The translations under genes were made by a program, and so were the position numbers. From a virus: a DNA stretch of 35,608 bases. The notes beneath the pieces were generated by a model. That model was not told the origin of the DNA, made no database searches, and saw only the letters and a program-made list of their open reading frames with translations. This document shows positions 4,801-27,449 of this stretch, one piece after another (position 1 is the stretch's first letter; every line of letters starts with the position of its first letter). Where the stretch lies: positions 1 to 35,608 of IMG/VR virus record IMGVR_UViG_3300021425_002585, one strand, 5' to 3'.

Positions 4801-4827
4801 ATATGATTATCCTTTGTTGTGTGTGTT

Positions 4828-5114
4828 GGGCCCGTTCTGTTGCTAGGTGGAACCCATACCCCGCATACCTAAATCAGGCTGCGATTGCCATTGCTGGCGC
4901 TGCGTTTGTGTTTGCAGTTATAAAGTTTAACCTATTACGCTGTTACCCGGTTAACTCCACTTCACTTTCACACCTGTCGATCCTATTTCTCGCCCATAAA
5001 AAACACACTATTGACCTTTCAGTGATAGAGAGTGATTTCTCCTAGTGTGCTTATGGTGGACGAGTGCGGTACCGCCCCGCAGTCCAGTATGTGTCCACGT
5101 TGCTTCAACGCTAA
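4828..5114 (-). ncRNA. ssrA: Circularly permuted (two-piece) tmRNA
   Basis: Read on the minus strand, the acceptor piece comes first: a T-stem TGCGG/CCGCA (5081-5065), acceptor strand CTCGTCC (5064-5058), A, then CCA (5056-5054). An intervening segment with arms CACACTA and TAGTGTG follows. The coding piece starts with GGGCGAG (4995-4989), which pairs with CTCGTCC (one G-U), followed by AATAGGATCGACAGG, a tmRNA signature. CAG+GTGTG of the coding piece pairs with CACAT-A-CTG of the acceptor piece as helix 2. The tag frame at 4915-4874 reads ANTNAAPAMAIAA then TGA. The permuted form is typical of alphaproteobacteria. The T-loop (GGCGGTA) departs from the usual TTCRANY. The 5' and 3' ends are estimates. 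Confidence 0.9.
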
Positions 5115-5119
5115 CACAC

Positions 5120-5127
5120 TATTTATA
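5120..5127 (-). promoter_or_regulatory. T4-late-type promoter (TATAAATA) upstream of tmRNA
   Basis: An exact TATAAATA lies about 6 bp before the predicted 5' end of the tmRNA acceptor piece and 11 bp after the stop of the MBL gene. If functional, the tmRNA and possibly the BMP gene are expressed late in infection. Confidence 0.65.
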
Positions 5128-5137
5128 ACACATTTGA

Positions 5138-5965
5138 TTAAAGTTTGTCAACCGGTATTTTTATAACTTCTGGTACTTCACCTGCTCGCATATTAACTTG
5201 TATGCTGGGCAGTATCAGTTGTGGCATACTCAGTTTAGCATCACGGGCTTCACGCATTTCAACATACTCCGATTTGCTTTTACCAGCAATCTGTATGTTC
5301 TTTGCTTTCTGTTCGCCTACAGTTGTTTCCCAAGCATAATCACGCCCGCCTGGAGCGTAATCGTGTGCCACAAAGATACGTGTTTCATCTGGTAGAGCAA
5401 GTATCTTTTGAATGCTGTCATACAAGTCTGCGGCACTGCCTCCTGGAAAGTCACATCGTGCTGTACCAAAGTCTGGCATAAACATTGTGTCACCTACAAA
5501 GGCAGCATCTTCTATTAGATAGGTTAAACAGGCAGGTGTATGTCCTGGAGTGTGCATTACTCGAGCACGTAGTTCGCCAATCATAAACTCATCACCTTCA
5601 CGGAACAGTCTATCAAATTGACTACCGTCACGCTCAAACTCTGTGCCTTCGTTGAATATCTTACCAAAGGTTTCTTGCACTGTCATTATGTGTGCGCCAA
5701 TAGCAATATCACCACCTAGTTTTTCTTGTAGGTAAGGTGCTGCACTCAAATGGTCTGCGTGAACGTGTGTTTCTAATATCCATTCAACTGTCAAGTTGTG
5801 CATTTGGATATATTGGATAATATTGTCTGCATTGGCAGTGTTGGTTCTGCCACTTGCAAAATCGAAGTCTAGTACGCTGTCTATGATAGCGCATTGTTTG
5901 CTGTCGTCAATTACAACATAACTAACCGTTTTGGTTGCGGTGTCAAAAAAGTCTTGTATTTGCAT
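5138..5965 (-). CDS. Metallo-beta-lactamase-fold hydrolase, persulfide dioxygenase/Blh-like, 275 aa
   Basis: Metal-binding motifs are clear: ETHVHADH (HxHxDH), MHTPGHT, FVGDTMFMPDFGTARCDFPGGSAADLYDSI and FVAHDY. The DFGTARCDFPGG block is typical of the ETHE1/Blh-like persulfide dioxygenase branch rather than glyoxalase II, suggesting oxidation of glutathione persulfide or a related sulfane sulfur compound. I chose the ATG at 5965 because it begins the conserved fold (QIQDFFDTATKTVSYVV); the longer start at 6031 runs into the upstream gene. A late-promoter element AATAAATA lies 5 nt upstream, with no Shine-Dalgarno sequence, so the mRNA may be leaderless. Confidence 0.8.
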   Translation of the reverse strand: MQIQDFFDTATKTVSYVVIDDSKQCAIIDSVLDFDFASGRTNTANADNIIQYIQMHNLTVEWILETHVHADHLSAAPYLQEKLGGDIAIGAHIMTVQETFGKIFNEGTEFERDGSQFDRLFREGDEFMIGELRARVMHTPGHTPACLTYLIEDAAFVGDTMFMPDFGTARCDFPGGSAADLYDSIQKILALPDETRIFVAHDYAPGGRDYAWETTVGEQKAKNIQIAGKSKSEYVEMREARDAKLSMPQLILPSIQVNMRAGEVPEVIKIPVDKL

Positions 5966-12996: not shown

Positions 12997-13244
12997 AAAG
13001 TATATCCTGTGCCTGTGTAATTAGTTTCTTCAATGTATTTTGTAAACTGTTCGTAACCGCCTACCTTTACCCCACTTACAACAATCTGTGGAAATGTACG
13101 TGCTTCTGGAAATTCTGCAAGCACTGCATCTCTGTCAAAATCTTTGCCTAGTTCTAAATATTCGAACTGATATCCACGTTGCTCGCACAATGCTTTTGCT
13201 TTTGTGCAGCTAGGACAAGCTGGCTTACCCCAAATGTGTATCAT
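12993..13244 (-). CDS. Glutaredoxin, 83 aa
   Basis: A thioredoxin-fold glutaredoxin with active site CPSC at residues 10-13 (KPACPSCTKAKALCEQRG), a cis-proline segment ARTFPQIVVSG and a GGYEQF substrate-binding turn. It would reduce the C-terminal redox cysteines of the phage ribonucleotide reductase. The ATG overlaps the NrdB stop (ATGA), matching the nrdA-nrdB-nrdC type clustering of T4-like phages. Confidence 0.88.
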   Translation of the reverse strand: MIHIWGKPACPSCTKAKALCEQRGYQFEYLELGKDFDRDAVLAEFPEARTFPQIVVSGVKVGGYEQFTKYIEETNYTGTGYTL

Positions 13245-14344
13245 AAACTAAATCCTTTCAAACTATCTTTGTTTACATCTTGCTTGATTCCACCAATTAC
13301 GTAGCTTTCAACTTCTGTTTCTTGCGGTGCAACCTGTAAACCCGAACTGGACAACCAGTGTTGTGTCCACGGTAGAGGATTTGTATTTACAGGTGCATCA
13401 AAGATAGCATTTAGCCCTAATGCTTTCAAGCGACGATTTGCAATATATTCAACATATTGAGCAAGCAAAGTTGTGTTAAGTCCAATCATTGAGCCGTCTT
13501 TAAACAAATACTCTGCCCAATCTTTTTCTTCTTCTACGCACTCACGCCAGAGGTCGTAAACTTCTTCTTCACACTCTTTTGCAACACTTGCCATTTCTAG
13601 ATCGTCTTTGCCTTGTGCCCAAAGTTTTAGTACGTGTGTGCTCAATGCCAAATGTTGTGCTTCGTCACGAGCGATAAGTGAAATAATCTTAGCCGAACCT
13701 TCCATAAGTTTTAGTTCGCCAAAGCCAAATGTGCAAGCAAAACTTACATAGAAACGCAGTCCTTCAAGGATGTTCACAGTCATCATTGCAAGATACATTT
13801 TCTTTTTGACTTCACGTAAACTACCTTCACCACGATGGAAGTATGCATCTGCTGCTTCGTTGAATGCATCATAATGTTTGGTTACACTGGTTGCACGAGC
13901 AATGATTTTTTCGTCATCTAAAATGGTATCAAAAACTTCTGCTGGATCAGCATAAACGTTTTTCATAATGTGTGTATAAGAACGGCTATGAATTGTTTCA
14001 AAAAAGTCCCAAGTAACAATGCAACCTTCTAGCTCAGGTAAACTTACGTGTGGCAAAAACGCCAAACATGGTCCGCGGCCTTGCACACTGTCTAATAGTG
14101 TTTGATACTTTAAGTTTGCAGTAAAGATATGCTTCTGCTCTGGACGGAAGTTGGCAAAGTCTGCACGGTCTTTTTGCAAACTAACTTCTTCTGGGCGCCA
14201 GAAATAACCCAGCATGGTTTGGTTCAACTTGTCGAAGACTGGAAACTTAAACACATCATAACGTTGTGTGTTTTGATCTTCTCCAAAGAACATATTTTGT
14301 TTTGTGAAATCAACTTTTTCTTGGTTAAAAACGGTCTTCGACAT
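13241..14344 (-). CDS. nrdB: Ribonucleotide reductase class Ia small subunit, 367 aa
   Basis: A ferritin-like diiron/tyrosyl-radical subunit. FFETIHSRSYTHIMKNVYADPAEVFD contains the radical tyrosine in SRSY as in E. coli NrdB; iron ligands are expected in the E-x-I-H region, in EGLRFYVSFACTF and in IARDEAQHLALSTH. I start at the ATG at 14344 (MSKTVFNQ), which has AAAGGA upstream; the longer frame runs into the promoter. A sigma70 promoter and a late promoter lie between nrdA and nrdB, so nrdB can be made independently of nrdA. Confidence 0.93.
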   Translation of the reverse strand: MSKTVFNQEKVDFTKQNMFFGEDQNTQRYDVFKFPVFDKLNQTMLGYFWRPEEVSLQKDRADFANFRPEQKHIFTANLKYQTLLDSVQGRGPCLAFLPHVSLPELEGCIVTWDFFETIHSRSYTHIMKNVYADPAEVFDTILDDEKIIARATSVTKHYDAFNEAADAYFHRGEGSLREVKKKMYLAMMTVNILEGLRFYVSFACTFGFGELKLMEGSAKIISLIARDEAQHLALSTHVLKLWAQGKDDLEMASVAKECEEEVYDLWRECVEEEKDWAEYLFKDGSMIGLNTTLLAQYVEYIANRRLKALGLNAIFDAPVNTNPLPWTQHWLSSSGLQVAPQETEVESYVIGGIKQDVNKDSLKGFSL

Positions 14345-14366
14345 TGTTATTCCTTTTATCTGTCTG

Positions 14367-14397
14367 TATAGATGACTATACAGCCACAAAGGCTGTA
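14367..14397 (-). promoter_or_regulatory. Two overlapping inverted repeats at the nrdB promoter
   Basis: TACAGCC/GGCTGTA with a 5-nt centre fills the spacer, and CTGTATAG/CTATACAG with a 4-nt centre (TCAT) spans the -10 box and expected start site. They could be operator sites or form a stem at the mRNA 5' end. Confidence 0.6.
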
Positions 14398-14403
14398 TGT
14401 CAA
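14375..14403 (-). promoter_or_regulatory. Sigma70-type promoter of nrdB
   Basis: TTGACA at 14403-14398, a 17-bp spacer and TATAGT at 14380-14375, 31 bp upstream of the ATG. Confidence 0.75.
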
Positions 14404-14411
14404 GTGTTTTT

Positions 14412-14419
14412 TATTTATA
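14412..14419 (-). promoter_or_regulatory. Late promoter TATAAATA overlapping the nrdA stop
   Basis: An exact TATAAATA whose TAA is the nrdA stop codon, 68 bp upstream of nrdB. Confidence 0.5.
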
Positions 14420-16721
14420 TTGCGCAGGCTTCGCACATTTCGTCTTCGCTACCATTTAGTTCAGACGGTTGTAATTCTACCTGTGGTTTTTCTTCTTCTA
14501 GTTCGCTTGGGTCAGTTTTGTAATCATAAGTGTTCTGATAATAACTGGTTTTCCATCCTAGTTTGTAAGTTTGTAGTAAGTCTTGGATCATTACACTCAT
14601 TGGCACTTCGTTGTCTGGGTACTGTGTCGGATTGTAACTCCAGTTACCGCTGATAGCTTGGTCAAAGAACTTTTGCATAACTGCAACAATATTAATATAT
14701 CCTTGATTGCCCGACATCTCCCAAAGTAGCGTATAATGATTCTTTAGAGTTTGATACTGTGGAACAATCTGCTTAAGAGGCCCTTTCTTTGACTTCTTAA
14801 CGGACAGGTAGCCGCGAGGTGGTTCGATTCCGTTGGTAGCGTTTGACACAACAGAGCTACTCTCCGATGGCATCTGTGCGGACAACGTGCTATGTCGTAG
14901 CCCGTGTTGTTTGATATCATTGCGTAAACTATCCCAATCATAGTTTAGTCTATTCTCCACTACGGCATCAAGGTCTTTTTTGTATGTGTCAATTGGAAGA
15001 ATGCCATCGCTGTATTTAGTGCGATCAAAGTACTCGCAAGCGCCACGCTCCTGCGCTAATTTGTTGCTGGCACGGAGAAGATAATATTGGAATGCTTCAG
15101 TTAGATCGTGTACTAACTTCCAAGCCTGCTCGTCTTGATATGAAACGTGATTCCTAGCAAGATAATGTGCAAGCCCAATATAACCAACACCTAAACTGCG
15201 ACGAGCTTTTGTGCTGATCTCTGCTGCTTTAATTGGATAACGTTGGTAATCAATAATTTCTTCCAATGCACGAACAGCAAGCTCACAAAGTTCTTCTAAG
15301 TCATCTAAAGATTTGATTGTGCCTACGTTGATTGCACTCAAAATACACAGTGCAATTTCGCCATCTGGATCATCAATATGCTGTAGTGGCTTTGTTGGTA
15401 GTGTAATTTCTTGACACAGGTTGCTCATATAAACCGTGTCTTTAAAACTGCTGTGAGTATTTGCGTGATCAACATTCATAATATAAATGCGGCCTGTTTC
15501 GGCACGTTCTTTGATTAAATCACTAAACAGTTCCATTGCATCGATGCGCTTTTTCTTAATACTGGTTTTGCGTTCGTACATTTCGTACAATTCTTTAAAT
15601 GCATCTGGATCACCAAAGTATGCCTCATATAATCCTGGCACATCGTGTGGTGAAAATAATGTAATCTCACCTCCGCTAAGTAGACGTTCGTACATTGTTT
15701 TGTTAAGTTGAATTGAGTAGTCTAGTTTGCGTACACGATTGTCTTCTGTACCTTTGTTGTTTTTTAACACAAGAATGTCTTCAATCTCTTGGTGCCAAAA
15801 CGGGAAGTGTACTGTTGCGCTACCTCCACGCACACCATTCTGTGTGCAACAACGAACCGTTGATTCAAACTTTTTAAGGAAAGGAATAATACCTGTATGC
15901 GCTACTTCGCCCCCACGGATCTTGGAATTTACTCCTCTGATGCGTCCGCTGTTGATTCCAATTCCTGCTCTTTGCGCAGTATAGCGTCCAATAGACATAT
16001 CGCTGGCAAAGATGCTATCAAGGGTATCGTCGCTGTCAACAAGAACACAGCTTGCAAATTGGCGCACTGGCGTTCTGACCCCAGCCATGACTGGCGTTGG
16101 GATATTGATTCTAAAAAGGGAGGTCGCATCGTAGTATCTCCTTACATAGTGCATACGTGTTTCTTTAGGATAGTTTGCAAAAAGTGTTGCAGCAATCATC
16201 ATATACATAAACTGAGGTGTTTCAAAAAGTTGACCACTGCTTCTATCCTGACAAAGATACTTATCTACAACCTGTCTTAGTCCAGCATATGTAAAGTTTT
16301 CATCTCTTTTATGATGAATGTAACTGTCTAGCCTTTCAATTTCATCTGCTGTATATTTTTCTAAAATTTCTGCATCATAGACGCCACGTTCAATATTCTT
16401 TTGGATCATTTTGCCTAATGACCAAGCTTCGTAGCCTCCAAATACTTCTTTGTTAACTCCGTAACTGAGTAACCGTGCTGCTGCGTATTGGTAGTTTGGT
16501 GCGTCCAAGGAGATTAAATCATTTGCGCTTCTTACTAATATTTCTTGTATTTCTGCCGAGCTCATACCATTATAAAATTGAATGTTGGCATTCATTTCAA
16601 TCAAGCTACTGCTGACACCTGCCAACCCGTCACAAGCGTATTCTACTACCTTGTGTATTTTTTCAATGTTAAGTTGTTCTTTATCGCCACTACGTTTGAC
16701 GATCATGGTAGTATCGCTCAT
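14415..16721 (-). CDS. nrdA: Ribonucleotide reductase class Ia large subunit, 768 aa
   Basis: An N-terminal ATP-cone-like region (VKRSGDKEQLNIEKIHKVVEYACDGL) precedes the catalytic barrel. Redox cysteine in FASCVLVDSDDTLDSI, active-site NLCQEITLPTKP with the radical cysteine and glutamate, and a C-terminal EDEMCEACAI carrying the thiol pair that glutaredoxin reduces. RNR converts ribonucleotides to deoxyribonucleotides for phage DNA synthesis. The length is normal. SD AAGGAG precedes the ATG. It begins the nrdA-nrdB-grx cluster. Confidence 0.95.
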   Translation of the reverse strand: MSDTTMIVKRSGDKEQLNIEKIHKVVEYACDGLAGVSSSLIEMNANIQFYNGMSSAEIQEILVRSANDLISLDAPNYQYAAARLLSYGVNKEVFGGYEAWSLGKMIQKNIERGVYDAEILEKYTADEIERLDSYIHHKRDENFTYAGLRQVVDKYLCQDRSSGQLFETPQFMYMMIAATLFANYPKETRMHYVRRYYDATSLFRINIPTPVMAGVRTPVRQFASCVLVDSDDTLDSIFASDMSIGRYTAQRAGIGINSGRIRGVNSKIRGGEVAHTGIIPFLKKFESTVRCCTQNGVRGGSATVHFPFWHQEIEDILVLKNNKGTEDNRVRKLDYSIQLNKTMYERLLSGGEITLFSPHDVPGLYEAYFGDPDAFKELYEMYERKTSIKKKRIDAMELFSDLIKERAETGRIYIMNVDHANTHSSFKDTVYMSNLCQEITLPTKPLQHIDDPDGEIALCILSAINVGTIKSLDDLEELCELAVRALEEIIDYQRYPIKAAEISTKARRSLGVGYIGLAHYLARNHVSYQDEQAWKLVHDLTEAFQYYLLRASNKLAQERGACEYFDRTKYSDGILPIDTYKKDLDAVVENRLNYDWDSLRNDIKQHGLRHSTLSAQMPSESSSVVSNATNGIEPPRGYLSVKKSKKGPLKQIVPQYQTLKNHYTLLWEMSGNQGYINIVAVMQKFFDQAISGNWSYNPTQYPDNEVPMSVMIQDLLQTYKLGWKTSYYQNTYDYKTDPSELEEEKPQVELQPSELNGSEDEMCEACAI

Positions 16722-17167: not shown

Positions 17168-18778
17168 TTATGAGCGATAGGATACCGTAAAAGTAAATTC
17201 GTCTGTATCAACACCTTCGTCTAGTGTAAGATTTTGACAATCAATGAAAATTTTATTTCCAGAAAGTGTTGCTCTAAATTCCAAAGCTTCTAATTTTGAC
17301 GAATTACCCGAATAAGTATAATCATCTCCGAAATCAATATCGGTGCCACTCAGTTCTCTGTTCCATTCAAGTCGCCAAGTACCTCTACGATGCACAGGAC
17401 CCGGTGCGTTTTCCGCAGTATATTTGTAATCAACTTCTATTACACCTCTATCGGTTAGTGCCGGTAATCCCATAAAATATTCATATGTAAGTATACCACC
17501 TATAGTAGTAGTGACAGGATAAGCATTTTCATAATTTATAGGTCCTTCAATTTCTGGAGGGTATAGGCCTGTGTTGAAATTTGGATCTACAGTAAGATCG
17601 CCCGTGCGTTGGAAATAATCACCAAGACTGTGGTTACCATGTTTTGCAAATCTAATAACACTGGATTGTGGATTATGACTATTGGCTCCATCATTGCCTA
17701 CAAAAACAAATTTGTTATTTTTGCTGGTATTGGTTGTGCCTTGATCACAAATTATAGCCTGGTTATTAATATTGTTAAAACTGATGTTTTCGAAAGTATT
17801 GTAACTTGGACCAGTAACCTGACCTGCTGCACCAGGCACAGCGTCCACAGCAAACTTAAATCCATAACCCAAGGTTTTCATTTTGCCGCCATCAAAATGA
17901 TTGTAACTTGCATCGTCATCAGTAAAGTAACCGTATACATAATTTTCAATGTGGATATTTTTAAAAATGTTGTTGTTGCAATCAAGCGATCCGATTGAGC
18001 CACTTCTTAATTTAAATGCACCGTAGTCAACGTCTATACCATCACCGAAACTCCATTGACCTACACATCTTATATTCCTAAATTCACTGTCTCTACAGTT
18101 TTGTAATATAATTGTACCACCATAACTGCTATGTGTAATGGTCATGTCTGAAATTCTGATGTATCTAGGTTGGTTACTACTACTATTTGTACTATCTTCT
18201 GCATAATTTCCTGCACCAGCACTATCGCCATTCTTAGTATAAAAAACACTAGAGCCTGTGCCGGTTAACAATGTTTTTTCCATTCCGTCACCGATAATGT
18301 TTGCAAAAGGTGGAATGTAAATTGGCGAAGTAATTAGGTATTCTCCTGCAGGTATTTTTAATGTAATATTTTTATTTTCACCACCAATTGGAGATAAAAA
18401 CAATTGATCTACTGCTCTTTGCAATGCTGCTGTTTGATCTGAGCCATCGCCGTTTGCACCAAAATCTGTTACACTAACAATATCGTCTAATTTTTGTGCA
18501 ATTGTTCTCTGCACAGGCGTTGCACCAGTTGCACCAGTTTGAACATTATCATTTGTTCTATAAGTGTATTGTCCTACTAAATCAAGAATATTGCTTTTGG
18601 TTGTAAGTATTTCTGTATTACCAGTTGCAGGAGCACCTTCGCTTACACTACCGTTGCCGATATAAAGTTTTTGTAAGTCTACTGCCCAACCCAGTTCACC
18701 ACTTGATAGCTGCGGTACACCACTAGTCCTTGCTCTACCTCTACGATGCTGTATTCTTGAAATTTGTACAACGGCCAT
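17168..18778 (-). CDS. Tail spike/fibre with right-handed beta-helix (pectin-lyase fold), 536 aa
   Basis: An N-terminal attachment segment (QISRIQHRRGRARTSGVPQLSSGELGWAVDLQKLYIGNG) is followed from residue ~100 by VSVTDFGANGDGSDQTAALQRAVDQLF, the classic entry of pectate-lyase-like spikes, then PAGEYLITSPIYIPPFANIIGDG and repeated N/D/G beta-helix rungs (RISDMTITHSSYGGTIILQNCRDSEFRNIRCVG). The C-terminal ~120 residues form another beta domain. It probably binds or cleaves host surface polysaccharide. SD AGGAG lies upstream with a late promoter 26 bp before the ATG. Confidence 0.82.
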   Translation of the reverse strand: MAVVQISRIQHRRGRARTSGVPQLSSGELGWAVDLQKLYIGNGSVSEGAPATGNTEILTTKSNILDLVGQYTYRTNDNVQTGATGATPVQRTIAQKLDDIVSVTDFGANGDGSDQTAALQRAVDQLFLSPIGGENKNITLKIPAGEYLITSPIYIPPFANIIGDGMEKTLLTGTGSSVFYTKNGDSAGAGNYAEDSTNSSSNQPRYIRISDMTITHSSYGGTIILQNCRDSEFRNIRCVGQWSFGDGIDVDYGAFKLRSGSIGSLDCNNNIFKNIHIENYVYGYFTDDDASYNHFDGGKMKTLGYGFKFAVDAVPGAAGQVTGPSYNTFENISFNNINNQAIICDQGTTNTSKNNKFVFVGNDGANSHNPQSSVIRFAKHGNHSLGDYFQRTGDLTVDPNFNTGLYPPEIEGPINYENAYPVTTTIGGILTYEYFMGLPALTDRGVIEVDYKYTAENAPGPVHRRGTWRLEWNRELSGTDIDFGDDYTYSGNSSKLEALEFRATLSGNKIFIDCQNLTLDEGVDTDEFTFTVSYRS

Positions 18779-18799: not shown

Positions 18800-19657
18800 T
18801 TAGTATTTATCCAACATATGTTTAGAAACATTATCGTAAACTATTTTAAATGTTTTGTTACCATTTAATATAAAATTCTGTGTAGGATCTTGCCATTTAT
18901 GAGTAAAATAATGATATTTTTCAGTGGCTAATAATTTATTTAAAATTTTTAAATCACCTTGATGTTTATCTAATGTAAGATGATCGAGATGTATTCCGCT
19001 AGGTTTATATCTATCTTGCGCATATAATTGTTCAACAAAATAGTATTCTGAGAAAGTAGAACCGTTCCAGTTAAAATTTTTTATTGTTTCAATAAAAAGA
19101 TTCCAGTCCGGAATGTGTTTTCTAAGTGAACGTCCGCTTAGTGGGAAAGGTGGAATATTTCCCCTAGTAATGCCTGTACTAGGCTTACCAGTCCATTTTT
19201 TTACAAAATCATTTATTCTATCAAATGGTGTATCAATTATTTTATTTGTTGGCTTCATATACAGCATATTTGCCAAATAAAATTGAGGATGCACGGGCCA
19301 GGTTTTACTGTCTAAGCTGATTGTTGTGTAATTTTTATTTTGCCAAGCATCCCACAATTTTATAAATTGTTGTTGCCAGTATGGCGCTTGCCAAAAATTG
19401 CTCAACACTTTACCAGTAGGATGCGATATACCAGGAACCGTGTGTATATCATTTAAAATAACATTTGCACTAGTAGGTACTTTTTTTTGCAGTTTATAAA
19501 ACCATTGATGCCAAGAACTTTGACGTTTTTCATTACACCAGATACTATATTCTCCTGTGTATCCTAACTTTGCAATTAATTTGTATTGTTTTTCAAACGT
19601 CCATTTATCTCTGTTGCAAGTAACAACACTTATTCTTGTATCATCCAAACTTTTCAT
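18800..19657 (-). CDS. Hypothetical protein, 285 aa
   Basis: A soluble alpha/beta protein, rich in aromatic residues, beginning DDTRISVVTCNRDKWTFEKQYKLIAKLGYTGEYSIWCNEKR. The start vaguely resembles glycosyltransferase-type nucleotide-binding folds, but no DxD motif or other catalytic signature is convincing. The ATG at 19657 overlaps the end of the nuclease gene by 17 bp; the longer frame to 19840 lies inside the nuclease gene and is rejected. It sits between the nuclease and the tail spike. Confidence 0.6.
   Translation of the reverse strand: MKSLDDTRISVVTCNRDKWTFEKQYKLIAKLGYTGEYSIWCNEKRQSSWHQWFYKLQKKVPTSANVILNDIHTVPGISHPTGKVLSNFWQAPYWQQQFIKLWDAWQNKNYTTISLDSKTWPVHPQFYLANMLYMKPTNKIIDTPFDRINDFVKKWTGKPSTGITRGNIPPFPLSGRSLRKHIPDWNLFIETIKNFNWNGSTFSEYYFVEQLYAQDRYKPSGIHLDHLTLDKHQGDLKILNKLLATEKYHYFTHKWQDPTQNFILNGNKTFKIVYDNVSKHMLDKY
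18804..18811 (-). promoter_or_regulatory. Late-promoter element upstream of the tail spike
   Basis: GATAAATA, then a ~20-nt leader with AGGAG, then the ATG at 18778; this is the standard leadered arrangement. Confidence 0.5.
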
Positions 19658-20321
19658 AATATTGATAAACCCTACGCCACCATTCTTGCTCCCATTCTGG
19701 GAACTCATCGGGCCACAGATCAAACTGCTGATATTCACCTGCACGACTGCACATAAAGATATGTCCTTCACGTATGTCTGTACCATGAACTTCATTATGT
19801 GCGATTGCATATGCTGTAAGTTGTAAGAAATAGTCTTCAACCCATTCTAGTTTCTTAGGCTTATTTGTCTGCTTAAAATCCATGATGCAAGGATTACCTT
19901 TATATTGTCCTACAAGGTCAGTTGTACCTGCGTAGATGTTAGGAACGTACAGAGGAACTTCGCTTCCCCATACTTCGTCAACATCATCCATAGCGTAAAC
20001 TTTGATTTTAGTGGCCATCATATGAGCTTGTTGTGCATACGGGTTACTACCAGCAGTAGGCCATTCGCCAAACTCTATATAATCTTCTAAATATTTGTGC
20101 ATACGAGTACCAACACCACTAGCTTCAGTTACAATTTCTTGTGCTTTCTGTTCGCCTACACGCTTTTTCCAAGCAATAAGATGTGTTTTGTCTTTTGTTT
20201 CACCTAGTATAGTTGTCACACTAGCTACTGGTGCGCCACCTGGTGCTGCATAACGGCGTTTGCCATTTATTTCAACACGTTTGAGTTTTTCATATGTAAA
20301 CTTGGGTTTGATTAATGTCAT
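19641..20321 (-). CDS. PD-(D/E)XK exonuclease (Cas4/RecB-like), 226 aa
   Basis: GTRMHKYLEDY (helical motif I), YAGTTDLVGQYKGNPCIMDFKQTNKPKKLEWVEDYFLQLTAYAIA contain the TDL aspartate, the D-F-K of the PD-(D/E)XK core and the downstream Q-x-x-x-Y motif of the RecB/Cas4-type nuclease branch. T4-like marine phages carry similar nucleases, probably for DNA recombination, repair or host DNA breakdown. No Shine-Dalgarno sequence is seen; the -10 box of the likely promoter ends 5 nt before the ATG. Confidence 0.8.
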   Translation of the reverse strand: MTLIKPKFTYEKLKRVEINGKRRYAAPGGAPVASVTTILGETKDKTHLIAWKKRVGEQKAQEIVTEASGVGTRMHKYLEDYIEFGEWPTAGSNPYAQQAHMMATKIKVYAMDDVDEVWGSEVPLYVPNIYAGTTDLVGQYKGNPCIMDFKQTNKPKKLEWVEDYFLQLTAYAIAHNEVHGTDIREGHIFMCSRAGEYQQFDLWPDEFPEWEQEWWRRVYQYYEKFG

Positions 20322-20326
20322 GCTTT

Positions 20327-20355
20327 ATAATAGCATTAAAGATCTGATAAGTCAA
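20327..20355 (-). promoter_or_regulatory. Sigma70-type promoter of the nuclease, with inverted repeat
   Basis: TTGACT at 20355-20350, a 17-bp spacer and TATTAT at 20332-20327; ATGCT/AGCAT arms flank the -10 box. The ATG begins 5 nt after the -10 box, so the mRNA would be leaderless or nearly so. Confidence 0.6.
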
Positions 20356-20632
20356 CAGCTCGTTTAGCCATTTTACTTACTGAGTCTTTGTCACCTCCAC
20401 CATTGGCTACTTTATTTACAAAAGAGATTTCGTCTTGTGTATAGTTTCCAACGATGTTTTTAATTCTATCATCTGCTTGAAATGCAGCATCAAAAGTTTC
20501 ATAGTTAAATTGTGGCACTTCACTGTTGTCCATCATTTTATCTAAATCTTCAAATGAGATAGATTCAACACCTTCTGCTTTTAACAAGCGAAGTAGTTTA
20601 TAAAGATTATCGCTATTAACTTCTTCAGTTAC
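20336..20632 (-). CDS. Frameshift-expressed C-terminal extension (98 codons, -1 frame)
   Basis: This frame opens directly at the G after the A9 run that ends the upstream gene and continues VTEEVNSDNLYKLLRLLKAEGVESISFEDLDKMM... to SKMAKRAVDLSDL. It has no ATG near its start and no Shine-Dalgarno sequence; a TTG at 20587 is the only start-like codon early on. The most economical reading is that it is made as the C-terminal part of a 386-aa fusion by -1 frameshifting at A9G, or that the A9 run is a sequencing error and the gene is single. Confidence 0.6.
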   Translation of the reverse strand, partial: VTEEVNSDNLYKLLRLLKAEGVESISFEDLDKMMDNSEVPQFNYETFDAAFQADDRIKNIVGNYTQDEISFVNKVANGGGDKDSVSKMAKRAVDLSDL

Positions 20633-20641
20633 TTTTTTTTT
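20590..20641 (-). other. Probable -1 ribosomal frameshift signal (A AAA AAG plus stem)
   Basis: The 0 frame reads TCA AAA AAA AAG TAA, giving a slippery A_AAA_AAG followed at once by the stop. Five nt after the heptamer a stem can form between GAAGAAGT (20626-20619) and ACTACTTC (20597-20590), with one mismatch. Slipping by -1 enters the open 98-codon frame exactly. Confidence 0.6.
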
Positions 20642-21495
20642 GAAAGTTTACGAGCTAAGTTACGTGGATCAACACTTTCACGTGTTTCTCTGCCTGCAGG
20701 CTCATCGCCACCTGCTGCTGCCGACGCTGCTGCAAATTCATCATCTGCTGGAGGTACCACACCGGAATCATCCATATCTACTGTTGGTTCCATTCCTGCG
20801 TCCATTTCAGGGGCCATATCATCGCCGCCCATTGGCGCTTGCATTTCACCTTCGCCTGTTAACATTGTAACACCGCTGCTTAACGCACCTCTTGTTGCTT
20901 CCATTGATGTGTATAGTTCATCTAAACTTGCTTTGATAGTTTCAACAAACGCATTACTTTGTTCTACACCCATTTCGTCACGAATTGCATCTGCAAGATC
21001 CAACATTGATTCTGTTTTCATTTCAGCAGTGTCTTCCATCCAGCCTGTAACTCTGTCAACCATGTCCTTAGCTGCCATAACAATCTCAGCTTGATCTTCT
21101 GCACCTTCAGAAACTTTCTTCTTTTTCTTAGCATCCTTAGCTGCTTGTGCAATTGGTTCTTCGGTATCGCCATCGTCATCAAGATCTGGACTATCAGGAC
21201 GTCTATTGTGTGTCTTTTCTTCGATTGCTTCTTCTTCAATATCACCACGCTCTGAAATTTCAGCATTCAACACATCTAAGAACAATTTTGACTTTTGATA
21301 TTCGTCGCTTTCTACAACAGTGTTAAAACTTTCACTAACTTCAATTTGACTCAGACGTGTTCTTAATTTGTTACGTGCATCGTGAAGTTGAGCTAATGTA
21401 AATGATTCTAATGCAATGCGCTTACCAAAGCGTTTTGCAAGGCTTTCGTTTAGTGTTTTTGCTGTTACTGGTTTTGCAAACTCTGAAATATTCAT
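20629..21495 (-). CDS. Acidic phage protein, possible prohead core/scaffold-like, 288 aa (0-frame product)
   Basis: An N-terminal helical region (LNESLAKRFGKRIALESFTLAQLHDARNKLRTRLSQIE ... YQKSKLFLDVLNAEISERG) precedes an acidic/lysine-rich linker, a helical middle and a very acidic Met/Ala/Asp-rich tail (MGGDDMAPEMDAGMEP...), ending ARKLSKKK. The composition resembles phage scaffold or core proteins, but no family is certain. It has SD AGGA and a late promoter 27 bp upstream. The last codons form the slippery site described separately. Confidence 0.7.
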   Translation of the reverse strand: MNISEFAKPVTAKTLNESLAKRFGKRIALESFTLAQLHDARNKLRTRLSQIEVSESFNTVVESDEYQKSKLFLDVLNAEISERGDIEEEAIEEKTHNRRPDSPDLDDDGDTEEPIAQAAKDAKKKKKVSEGAEDQAEIVMAAKDMVDRVTGWMEDTAEMKTESMLDLADAIRDEMGVEQSNAFVETIKASLDELYTSMEATRGALSSGVTMLTGEGEMQAPMGGDDMAPEMDAGMEPTVDMDDSGVVPPADDEFAAASAAAGGDEPAGRETRESVDPRNLARKLSKKK

Positions 21496-22981: not shown

Positions 22982-23356
22982 TTATTTATCCATTTCAAAG
23001 ATAATATTAATATCTTTTCCGCTGGTTATAAAAATAGCATTATCAAACCTTACTGTTTCATTTAGTCCTTGAATAAAAGGCACAAACATAAAATCCTGCT
23101 CCATCATTTCTACGGTAAGAGCACCTTCATACTCAGTTTCAAAATCCAATTGCCAAACAGTATTATTACCAAATCTTTTGTCCTTTGTTGTAATAGGATC
23201 GGATTCTATAGTAGGATTTACTCTTAACCCTATTGTGTTAATAACCGTTAAAAAATTTTGTTTTTGTCCATAAGAAAGTTTATCATCTTTTGAAGCCTTG
23301 ATGTGGTTGGTAATGTCTATTGTGGTTTTAATACAAAATTTAGTATGTGTAGCCAT
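22982..23356 (-). CDS. Hypothetical protein, 124 aa
   Basis: A mixed alpha/beta protein (HTKFCIKTTIDITNHIKASKDDKLSYGQKQNFLTVINTIG...NNTVWQLDFETEYEG...MMEQDFMFVPFIQG). No family was recognised. Its ATG lies 17 bp inside the upstream sulfotransferase gene. The stop region contains GATAAATA, a possible late promoter for the next gene. Confidence 0.6.
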   Translation of the reverse strand: MATHTKFCIKTTIDITNHIKASKDDKLSYGQKQNFLTVINTIGLRVNPTIESDPITTKDKRFGNNTVWQLDFETEYEGALTVEMMEQDFMFVPFIQGLNETVRFDNAIFITSGKDINIIFEMDK

Positions 23357-23894
23357 ATTCTATAATATCTTTCATATAAACATCCCAAACAAGATCTTTC
23401 AACTCAGGTGTATACAAATCTTTATAATCATAATCTCTTGATGTGTTTAATTTTGGTAAAGGTTTATCACAACCTAATAATTCTTGTATCTGAGTAAATT
23501 CTTCTTCGAGATTTTCATATTTTAAAATAATAGTGTGTGTGCCAAACCAATTGTACTGCGGAGTGTCCAACTTGTACCAATTTCTTGCCCATAACAAAAA
23601 AGGCTGGTATGAAAGACTGTTTTGATAATTTACAAATCTAGTTAACATCCATTCTTTGAAACTTATGGTACCGCCGTTTGAAAACATATACCAACTTGCT
23701 AGACGTTCCCAAGGATTTCTAACCACACCAAAAGTTTTTTCTGTTCTAGGAAAGAATTCATTGACCTCTACTATGTGTCCGTGCTTCCTTCCAGGAATAG
23801 TCACAAAGTTTTCATCTAACCAATTTGATATACTGGTGCCTGCTGTTTTAGGATTATGTATAAATGTGACTTTGTGTTCAGGTAAATGACGCAT
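23340..23894 (-). CDS. Sulfotransferase-like protein, 184 aa
   Basis: A PAPS-dependent sulfotransferase pattern: FIHNPKTAGTSI (5'-phosphosulfate loop, K-T-A-G-T-S) and FGVVRNPWERLASWYMF (3'-phosphate motif, R-N-P-x-x-R-L-x-S). The length is short but within the Sulfotransfer_2-type range. The target may be host surface glycans or the phage's own fibre. TGTAAATA sits 4 nt before the ATG (leaderless type), and a terminator precedes it. Confidence 0.75.
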   Translation of the reverse strand: MRHLPEHKVTFIHNPKTAGTSISNWLDENFVTIPGRKHGHIVEVNEFFPRTEKTFGVVRNPWERLASWYMFSNGGTISFKEWMLTRFVNYQNSLSYQPFLLWARNWYKLDTPQYNWFGTHTIILKYENLEEEFTQIQELLGCDKPLPKLNTSRDYDYKDLYTPELKDLVWDVYMKDIIEYGYTY

Positions 23895-26897: not shown

Positions 26898-27449
26898 TCA
26901 GTCTATGTTTATAATAACATCTTTTTCCAAAAAGTCAATACATTTTTCTGGAGTTGTTTCACCATACGGATCATTGTCATCTCCATCATTGTTGATGCCA
27001 GGTTCCTGCCACCACTTCTCTACTACACCATTATTAAGAACACACATATAGCGCCACGAACGCAAGCCAAAGCCCAAATGGTTCTTACCAATCAACATAC
27101 CCATGAAGCGGGTAAAGTTACCTGATCCATCCGGAATAACTTTTACGTGTTTAATATCTTGCTGTTTAGCCCAAGCGTTCATTACAAATGCATCATTTAC
27201 ACTGATACAATAAACTTCATCGATATCAGCATTACAAATGCGGTCATAGTTTTCTTCAAAGCCTGGCAACTGGTATGTGCTACAAGTAGGAGTAAATGCT
27301 CCTGGCAAACTGAATAGCACTACACGTTTGTTTTTGAATAATTCATCACTGGTTGTTTGTTGCCAACGATATGGGTTAGGCCCATCAATACTCTCGTCTC
27401 TTACACGAGTTTGAAAAACCGTACAAGGTGGTTTAAATCCTTCAATCAT
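26898..27449 (-). CDS. Peroxiredoxin (Prx5/AhpE-like), 183 aa
   Basis: The peroxidatic motif PGAFTPTCSTYQLPGFEENYD with the resolving pattern absent nearby, and GKNHLGFGLRSWRYMCVLNNGVVEKWWQEPG, match the Prx5-type family. It would reduce peroxides with glutaredoxin or glutathione. Terminal cysteines are few, so it may be a 1-Cys form. It stands behind its own sigma70 promoter and long inverted repeat. Confidence 0.85.
   Translation of the reverse strand: MIEGFKPPCTVFQTRVRDESIDGPNPYRWQQTTSDELFKNKRVVLFSLPGAFTPTCSTYQLPGFEENYDRICNADIDEVYCISVNDAFVMNAWAKQQDIKHVKVIPDGSGNFTRFMGMLIGKNHLGFGLRSWRYMCVLNNGVVEKWWQEPGINNDGDDNDPYGETTPEKCIDFLEKDVIINID

Follow-up and report, generated by a model that had tools for sequence, protein, structure and literature searches.

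The window analysed here, the whole 35,608-nt viral record IMGVR_UViG_3300021425_002585, carries on its minus strand two overlapping reading frames that meet at a run of nine adenines. The upstream frame, ORF A (21495..20629, 288 aa plus stop), ends ...CTT TCA AAA AAA AAG TAA. The A9 occupies 20641-20633 and is followed by G at 20632, so that the in-frame codons are TCA AAA AAA AAG; the heptamer A_AAA_AAG, read from the sequence, lies in the 0 frame at 20632..20638, and the TAA stop of ORF A (20629..20631) stands directly 3' of the slip site. In the -1 frame the same bases read TTC AAA AAA AAA GTA ACT GAA and remain open down to 20336. This second frame, ORF B (20336..20641, minus strand), has 101 codons plus stop when counted from the run-encoded KKK and 103 codons from stop to stop, 98 of which follow the KKK; its earliest ATG, GTG or TTG is a TTG at 20587, well inside the B domain. 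A first-pass annotation had described an A9G followed by a stop and by a 98-codon ORF without its own start in the -1 frame, with expected products of 288 aa and a 386-aa fusion, and both the arrangement and the sizes are borne out by the sequence and the ORF coordinates. The whole window contains two A/T runs of at least 8 nucleotides.

A is probably an internal head or virion protein. It belongs to the PHROG 14154 family, 'virion structural protein, head and packaging' (E 7.3e-13), it is acidic, and its all-alpha structure model shows a pair of long helices and an acidic region that is disordered. Genes for a Gp23-type capsid protein and an S77 protease were found in five of eight large records tested, namely three contigs of more than 250 kb, Atu_ph07 and Phosso, and were not matched in three shorter contigs tested; the window itself is a fragment. 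In three of these records a distinct long ORF terminates immediately upstream of the capsid gene, at the position of T4 gp22, and by this analogy A is probably not the main scaffold. The relative of A in the jumbo phage Atu_ph07 is gp44, annotated in RefSeq as a virion structural protein; 29 proteins of the CDS 31-76 cluster are reported as identified by mass spectrometry (PMC6102473).

B gave no meaningful match to PHROG or Pfam. Its model follows a helix-strand-helix-helix-strand-strand order at a mean pLDDT of only 68 and its top structural matches are winged-helix domains with Z of at most 6.6, from which we tentatively describe B as a predicted winged-helix domain. In BFVD, the proteins with folds similar to A and those with folds similar to B carry the names of the same two phages, Atu_ph07 and ctWb16, and their lengths suggest that those of Atu_ph07 are gp44 and gp43, a pairing that proves nothing alone. 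Sequence relatedness to B was undetectable both for Atu_ph07 gp43, which is annotated as a hypothetical and not as a virion protein, and for the Phosso gene next to A.

Downstream of A and B lies a gene for a PD-(D/E)XK-type exonuclease (19641..20321, minus strand), and this neighbour is conserved in 85 of 88 representative loci among the matches listed. The commonest phage frameshift is that of the tail-assembly chaperones (PMC5009743), and a chaperone pair of the lambda G/GT type would share the logic of the present locus, a low-level -1 frameshift that appends a second, C-terminal domain in a tailed phage. We consider this identity very improbable, since gene, context and protein class all differ: an exonuclease gene stands where the tape measure gene would be, the 30 window proteins scanned gave no tape measure family match, neither A nor B has a family match to chaperones, and the Atu_ph07 homologue of A is annotated as virion structural. 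Relatives of another window gene are found near A and B in 81 of the 88 loci among the matches listed; its product (17168-18778, minus strand) is a pectate-lyase-like protein with a weak N-terminal match to Mtd_N (major tropism determinant) and is possibly a receptor-binding protein.

Conservation of the slip site among relatives

A search of viral contigs with B first yielded 14 loci, of which 13 are real relatives and one, L014, was dropped as a chance match. All 13 relatives read TCA AAA AAA AAG followed by TAA or TAG, with B in the -1 frame. Profile scans with B, with A and with a more distant A alignment, from which the best 80 of 84, the best 80 of 451 and the best 80 of 569 matches were taken, nearest first, brought the total to 253 loci; distant relatives are therefore under-sampled, and all counts of junctions, loci and representatives given below (250, 128, 118, 10, 88) hold among the matches listed by these scans. 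Both A and B are present in 250 of the 253 loci, the junction counts leaving out L087 and L093, which are without A, and L266, which ends before B. Only identical 120-nt junctions were removed to obtain 128 distinct junctions from these 250 loci, and the loci are not all independent, some contigs having been picked up by two or more scans. One scan pattern, KKKVTEE, reaches across the junction and is biased towards the frameshift type, for which reason the scans with A alone were counted apart; blind to the junction, they returned 78 frameshift and 10 own-start junctions among the matches listed.

Among 50,697 phage records we found no close relatives of A or B, only weak matches. The A protein of locus L090 matches Atu_ph07 and Phosso weakly; its cyanophage matches fall on residues 285-353, outside the stretch matched by those two phages, and were not counted as relatives of A. 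ORF A carries lineage-specific insertions in L002 (1835-3016) and in L090 (2280-3854), part of the latter sharing about 55% identity with hypothetical proteins from Synechococcus phages. A9G also occurs in two MAG contigs found through A. The frameshift pair is present in L273 (PBPT01000016.1, 335 kb), which is binned in a Neomarinimicrobiota MAG and may be a phage contig that was binned along with the bacterium.

A search of related phages for the A-run in the same frame relation had been suggested, and 118 of the 128 distinct junctions (236 loci, among the matches listed) show this arrangement: B lies in the -1 frame, and the heptamer, always in frame, is A_AAA_AAG in 104 and A_AAA_AAA in 14. 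The run holds at least 8 As in 117 of these 118 junctions: 98 have A9 in the same phase as the window, 8 have A8 (TCT AAA AAA AAG), 7 have A10 and 4 have A9 shifted by one codon position, the last junction, L262, having A6G only. The 14 junctions without A_AAA_AAG have nine or ten As. The 0-frame stop directly follows the run codon in 85 of 118 and lies within 7 codons in all of them. Runs of at least 8 A/T occur at the site in 61 of 62 representative loci, against 26 elsewhere in 483,528 nt, and the A-run at the A/B junction is thus far from chance.

The reading frame downstream is conserved as protein. Across the site the B frame encodes a conserved KKK-[VIL]xE, and B falls to 27% identity among relatives with its frame unchanged. 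In 57 related pairs, differences in B by codon position 1/2/3 number 952/631/2341, and codons with a single change are synonymous in 1625 cases and nonsynonymous in 452; by these substitution patterns B evolves as a selected protein in the -1 frame.

Homopolymers are error-prone in sequencing, and a true run of A10 would place A and B in a single continuous frame. Sequencing or assembly error is refuted as a general explanation, and for the window it is exceedingly improbable, given that the -1 relation recurs in 236 loci of public assemblies (118 distinct junctions) and persists even between junctions that have neither sequence nor phase, run length or stop position in common. The first-pass annotation had singled out an A-count that makes the frames continuous as evidence against frameshifting; this was found at none of the 118 frameshift-type junctions, B being always in the -1 frame.

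The remaining 10 of the 128 junctions (among the matches listed) provide B with an ATG of its own, which either overlaps the stop of A (TAATG) or follows after a short gap. None of these 10 has a run of at least 8 As, compared with 117 of 118 frameshift-type junctions (Fisher 5e-14, a value overstated by the relatedness of the rows). A tree built from 86 A proteins requires that B acquired its own start three times independently, in each case nested within frameshift rows. Homologues with a normal start for B had also been named in advance as evidence against a frameshift, and they do exist, but the A-run is gone from them, which supports the frameshift reading. The comparison thus shows the site replaced by an independent start of B in three lineages, and the A-run kept only while B depends on it.

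These 10 junctions, together with the position of the stop of A within a few codons of the first conserved B residues, could also be taken to mean that B is translated independently everywhere, by reinitiation or from an unusual start, and that the overlap has no frameshift role. We regard this as highly unlikely, as 107 of 118 frameshift-type junctions are free of ATG, GTG and TTG in the B frame over the whole stretch between the upstream stop and the tenth codon after the junction, own-start junctions never combine with at least 8 As, and KKK-[VIL]xE is conserved across the site in the B frame. The programmed -1 frameshift first proposed from the window alone is strongly supported by the 118 of 128 homologous junctions that share it and by the evolution of B as a -1-frame protein. 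With good confidence we interpret the locus as a conserved programmed -1 frameshift in a virion gene, probably one for an internal head protein, of uncultured T4-like large marine phages.

Possible ribosomal or transcriptional slippage at the A-run

In the mechanism that we propose, most ribosomes would terminate after AAG and make A alone, and a presumed minority would slip back on A_AAA_AAG by a single base, giving the A-B fusion. We think it rather probable, judging from comparative sequence evidence, that the slip is mainly ribosomal rather than due to RNA polymerase or to a comparable mixture of the two, a preference based on the in-frame heptamer, on the excess of RNA structure after the site and on L262, in which A6G is combined with a strong stem.

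The stem noted initially in the window, with its 5' arm at 20626-20619 and its 3' arm at 20597-20590 (minus strand), exists as described, with 7 of 8 pairs and 5 nt after the heptamer, but alone it is marginal against shuffled sequences. It is present in the predicted fold, with z of -1.36 over 50 nt and -1.52 over 62 nt, and 17 of 200 and 15 of 200 shuffles, respectively, fold as well. In nine close relatives, where the stem and its 3' arm are kept in part, 84% of cells pair and covariation is weak. The stronger signal is that of the family. In 82 representatives compared with dinucleotide shuffles, structure at the site has a mean z of -1.13 (30 nt) and -1.45 (60 nt), while five control positions gave values from -0.01 to -0.67; the excess peaks at the slip site, and not every lineage has a structure. 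A first test, which compared raw folding energies with those of neighbouring positions in 62 representatives, gave no excess (mean z -0.25, p 0.24), and its repetition on 82 representatives gave a modest one; raw folding energies mislead in this case, A and B being of different base composition.

The length of the run is an argument for a contribution of RNA polymerase. Under transcriptional slippage the polymerase would add one A or drop two at A8-A10, so that part of the mRNA would have A and B in one frame and the protein product would be the same. At least 8 As in 117 of 118 junctions exceed what the heptamer needs, and such runs are rare elsewhere; the run is of nine or ten As where A_AAA_AAG is lost (14 of 118); and a Shine-Dalgarno (SD)-like stimulator upstream of the slip site was sought in 62 representatives without any anti-SD signal. 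A-runs longer than seven, and the nine As of Thermus thermophilus dnaX, are given as slippage sites in PMC3711429. We nevertheless consider transcriptional slippage unlikely, if a serious alternative, on three grounds: L262 has A6G only, without an own start for B and with a strong stem (z -2.74); the structure excess of the family lies exactly after the site, where a polymerase does not need it; and the heptamer is in frame in 118 of 118 junctions, though any nine-A run yields one.

Two dnaX genes are the closest points of reference for the site itself. With that of E. coli the A/B locus shares the A_AAA_AAG heptamer, the pair of 0-frame and -1 products and, in many members, a downstream structure; it differs in belonging to a viral virion gene, in its longer A-run, in being without the upstream SD-like element of dnaX and in that frameshifting yields the longer of the two products, a fusion. 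T. thermophilus dnaX resembles it in its nine-A run and its two frame products, made there by transcriptional slippage, but is a bacterial replication gene, and the downstream structure and L262 point to ribosomes at the A/B site.

Junction motif and the possible use of the fusion

Directly after the junction the B frame encodes V-T-E (20624..20632, minus strand), which matches the hydrophobic-x-Glu motif of prohead proteases. The T4 prohead protease prefers a hydrophobic residue in its motif. Proteases of the T4 type cut after Glu, the motif two residues before it varying by phage, and head propeptides of 10-20 residues are removed (PMC5694885). The motif is short and common. All 118 frameshift rows have [ILVMA]xE within 14 residues of the junction, compared with 38% of 14-residue stretches of A. 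Beyond the junction site, [ILV]xE is depleted in B (22 observed vs 79 expected from shuffling, 88 representatives), against 1.23 times expectation in 197 other ORFs. ORF A has a second conserved match, V-S-E before G (21106..21114, minus strand), the pattern [ILVM]xEG[AE] being found in A in 82 of 88 representatives. In the capsid protein of three relatives, L-x-E stands right before a conserved ATAGATS stretch, by analogy a likely place of maturation.

Own-start Bs carry hydrophobic-x-Glu in a short N-terminal peptide in 10 of 10 cases, and this peptide resembles the T4 capsid-targeting sequence. From the junction motif, its depletion elsewhere and these N-termini, B may be an internal protein that reaches the head in one of two ways, carried by A after frameshifting or by its own peptide, and is afterwards released by cleavage. 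In the first case a limited amount of B would enter the prohead as a passenger on A and would be freed when the prohead protease cuts at the hydrophobic-x-Glu beside the junction. In the lineages without a frameshift, an N-terminal targeting peptide with the same kind of cut site would serve instead. We put forward only tentatively, on comparative sequence grounds, that the purpose of the fusion is to carry B into the prohead on A, to be cut free there by the prohead protease. Equally tentative is the broader suggestion that the frameshift acts as a cargo-loading device, by which a fixed small fraction of a prohead-core protein would carry an internal protein, so that this protein would need no targeting signal itself and would reach the head interior in constant proportion, to be cut free there by the prohead protease at the site built into the junction.

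A fusion that stays intact is a comparably plausible outcome, to which we also give less than even weight. A-B would then be a minor functional variant of A, whose basic tail or winged-helix domain would bind DNA or a partner. Frameshifted minor capsid variants of other phages remain in the virion (PMC5009743), and B looks, in its model, like a winged helix, a fold common in nucleic-acid-binding proteins. Against permanence, three lineages make B unfused, and the protease-type motif is present at the junction in 118 of 118 cases. Since these three lineages are without the A-run and have an own start for B, the purpose of the fusion is testable.

Passage of B into the head on A would bring the system close to the T4 internal proteins, which have a capsid-targeting sequence and are cut by gp21. 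The likeness lies in the own-start Bs with their short hydrophobic-x-Glu N-terminus and in the Gp23-type capsid protein and S77 protease encoded by large relatives; the difference is that most Bs are without an N-terminus of their own and are frameshifted onto A, and that packaging of B is here our proposal. Frameshifting in phage structural genes is itself already known, and the coat protein of T3/T7 and the systems of Lactobacillus A2 and Listeria PSA/A118/A500 likewise make a minor, C-terminally extended virion protein by frameshifting (PMC5009743). Those systems extend major coat or tail proteins with domains that are Ig-like or of other kinds, whereas in A/B the extended protein would be all-alpha and head-associated and the added domain winged-helix-like, and a protease-type motif lies where the two are joined.

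The frameshift in the A/B gene family appears to be new. In the literature on phage frameshifting, head proteins and jumbo phages there was no report of the A/B pair among the matches listed, and the word 'frameshift' is absent from the jumbo-phage review PMC13282480. Tail chaperones, with a handful of coat or tail proteins, are the best-known cases of programmed frameshifting in tailed phages; A/B is a different virion gene, in which the frameshift is fixed across a large group of uncultured marine phages, with three own-start lineages as natural controls. Should the passenger reading be correct, the frameshift would be a novel means of controlling how many copies of an internal head protein are present, and proteins could be loaded into large phage heads by genetic means. 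For annotation the locus is a warning, as gene callers that require a start codon miss B.

Other genes of the window

The window also encodes a permuted tmRNA of the alphaproteobacterial type (4824-5154, minus strand; Rfam RF01849, 100 bits, and RF04321, 106 bits), for which ARAGORN gives the tag ANTNAAPAMAIAA; the presence of this gene in a phage hints at a host among the Alphaproteobacteria. The genes nrdB and nrdA of a class I ribonucleotide reductase lie at 13241-16721 (minus strand). Three further minus-strand genes, peroxiredoxin-like (26898-27449), sulfotransferase-like (23340-23894) and taurine-dioxygenase-like (1935-2870), are possible auxiliary metabolic genes.
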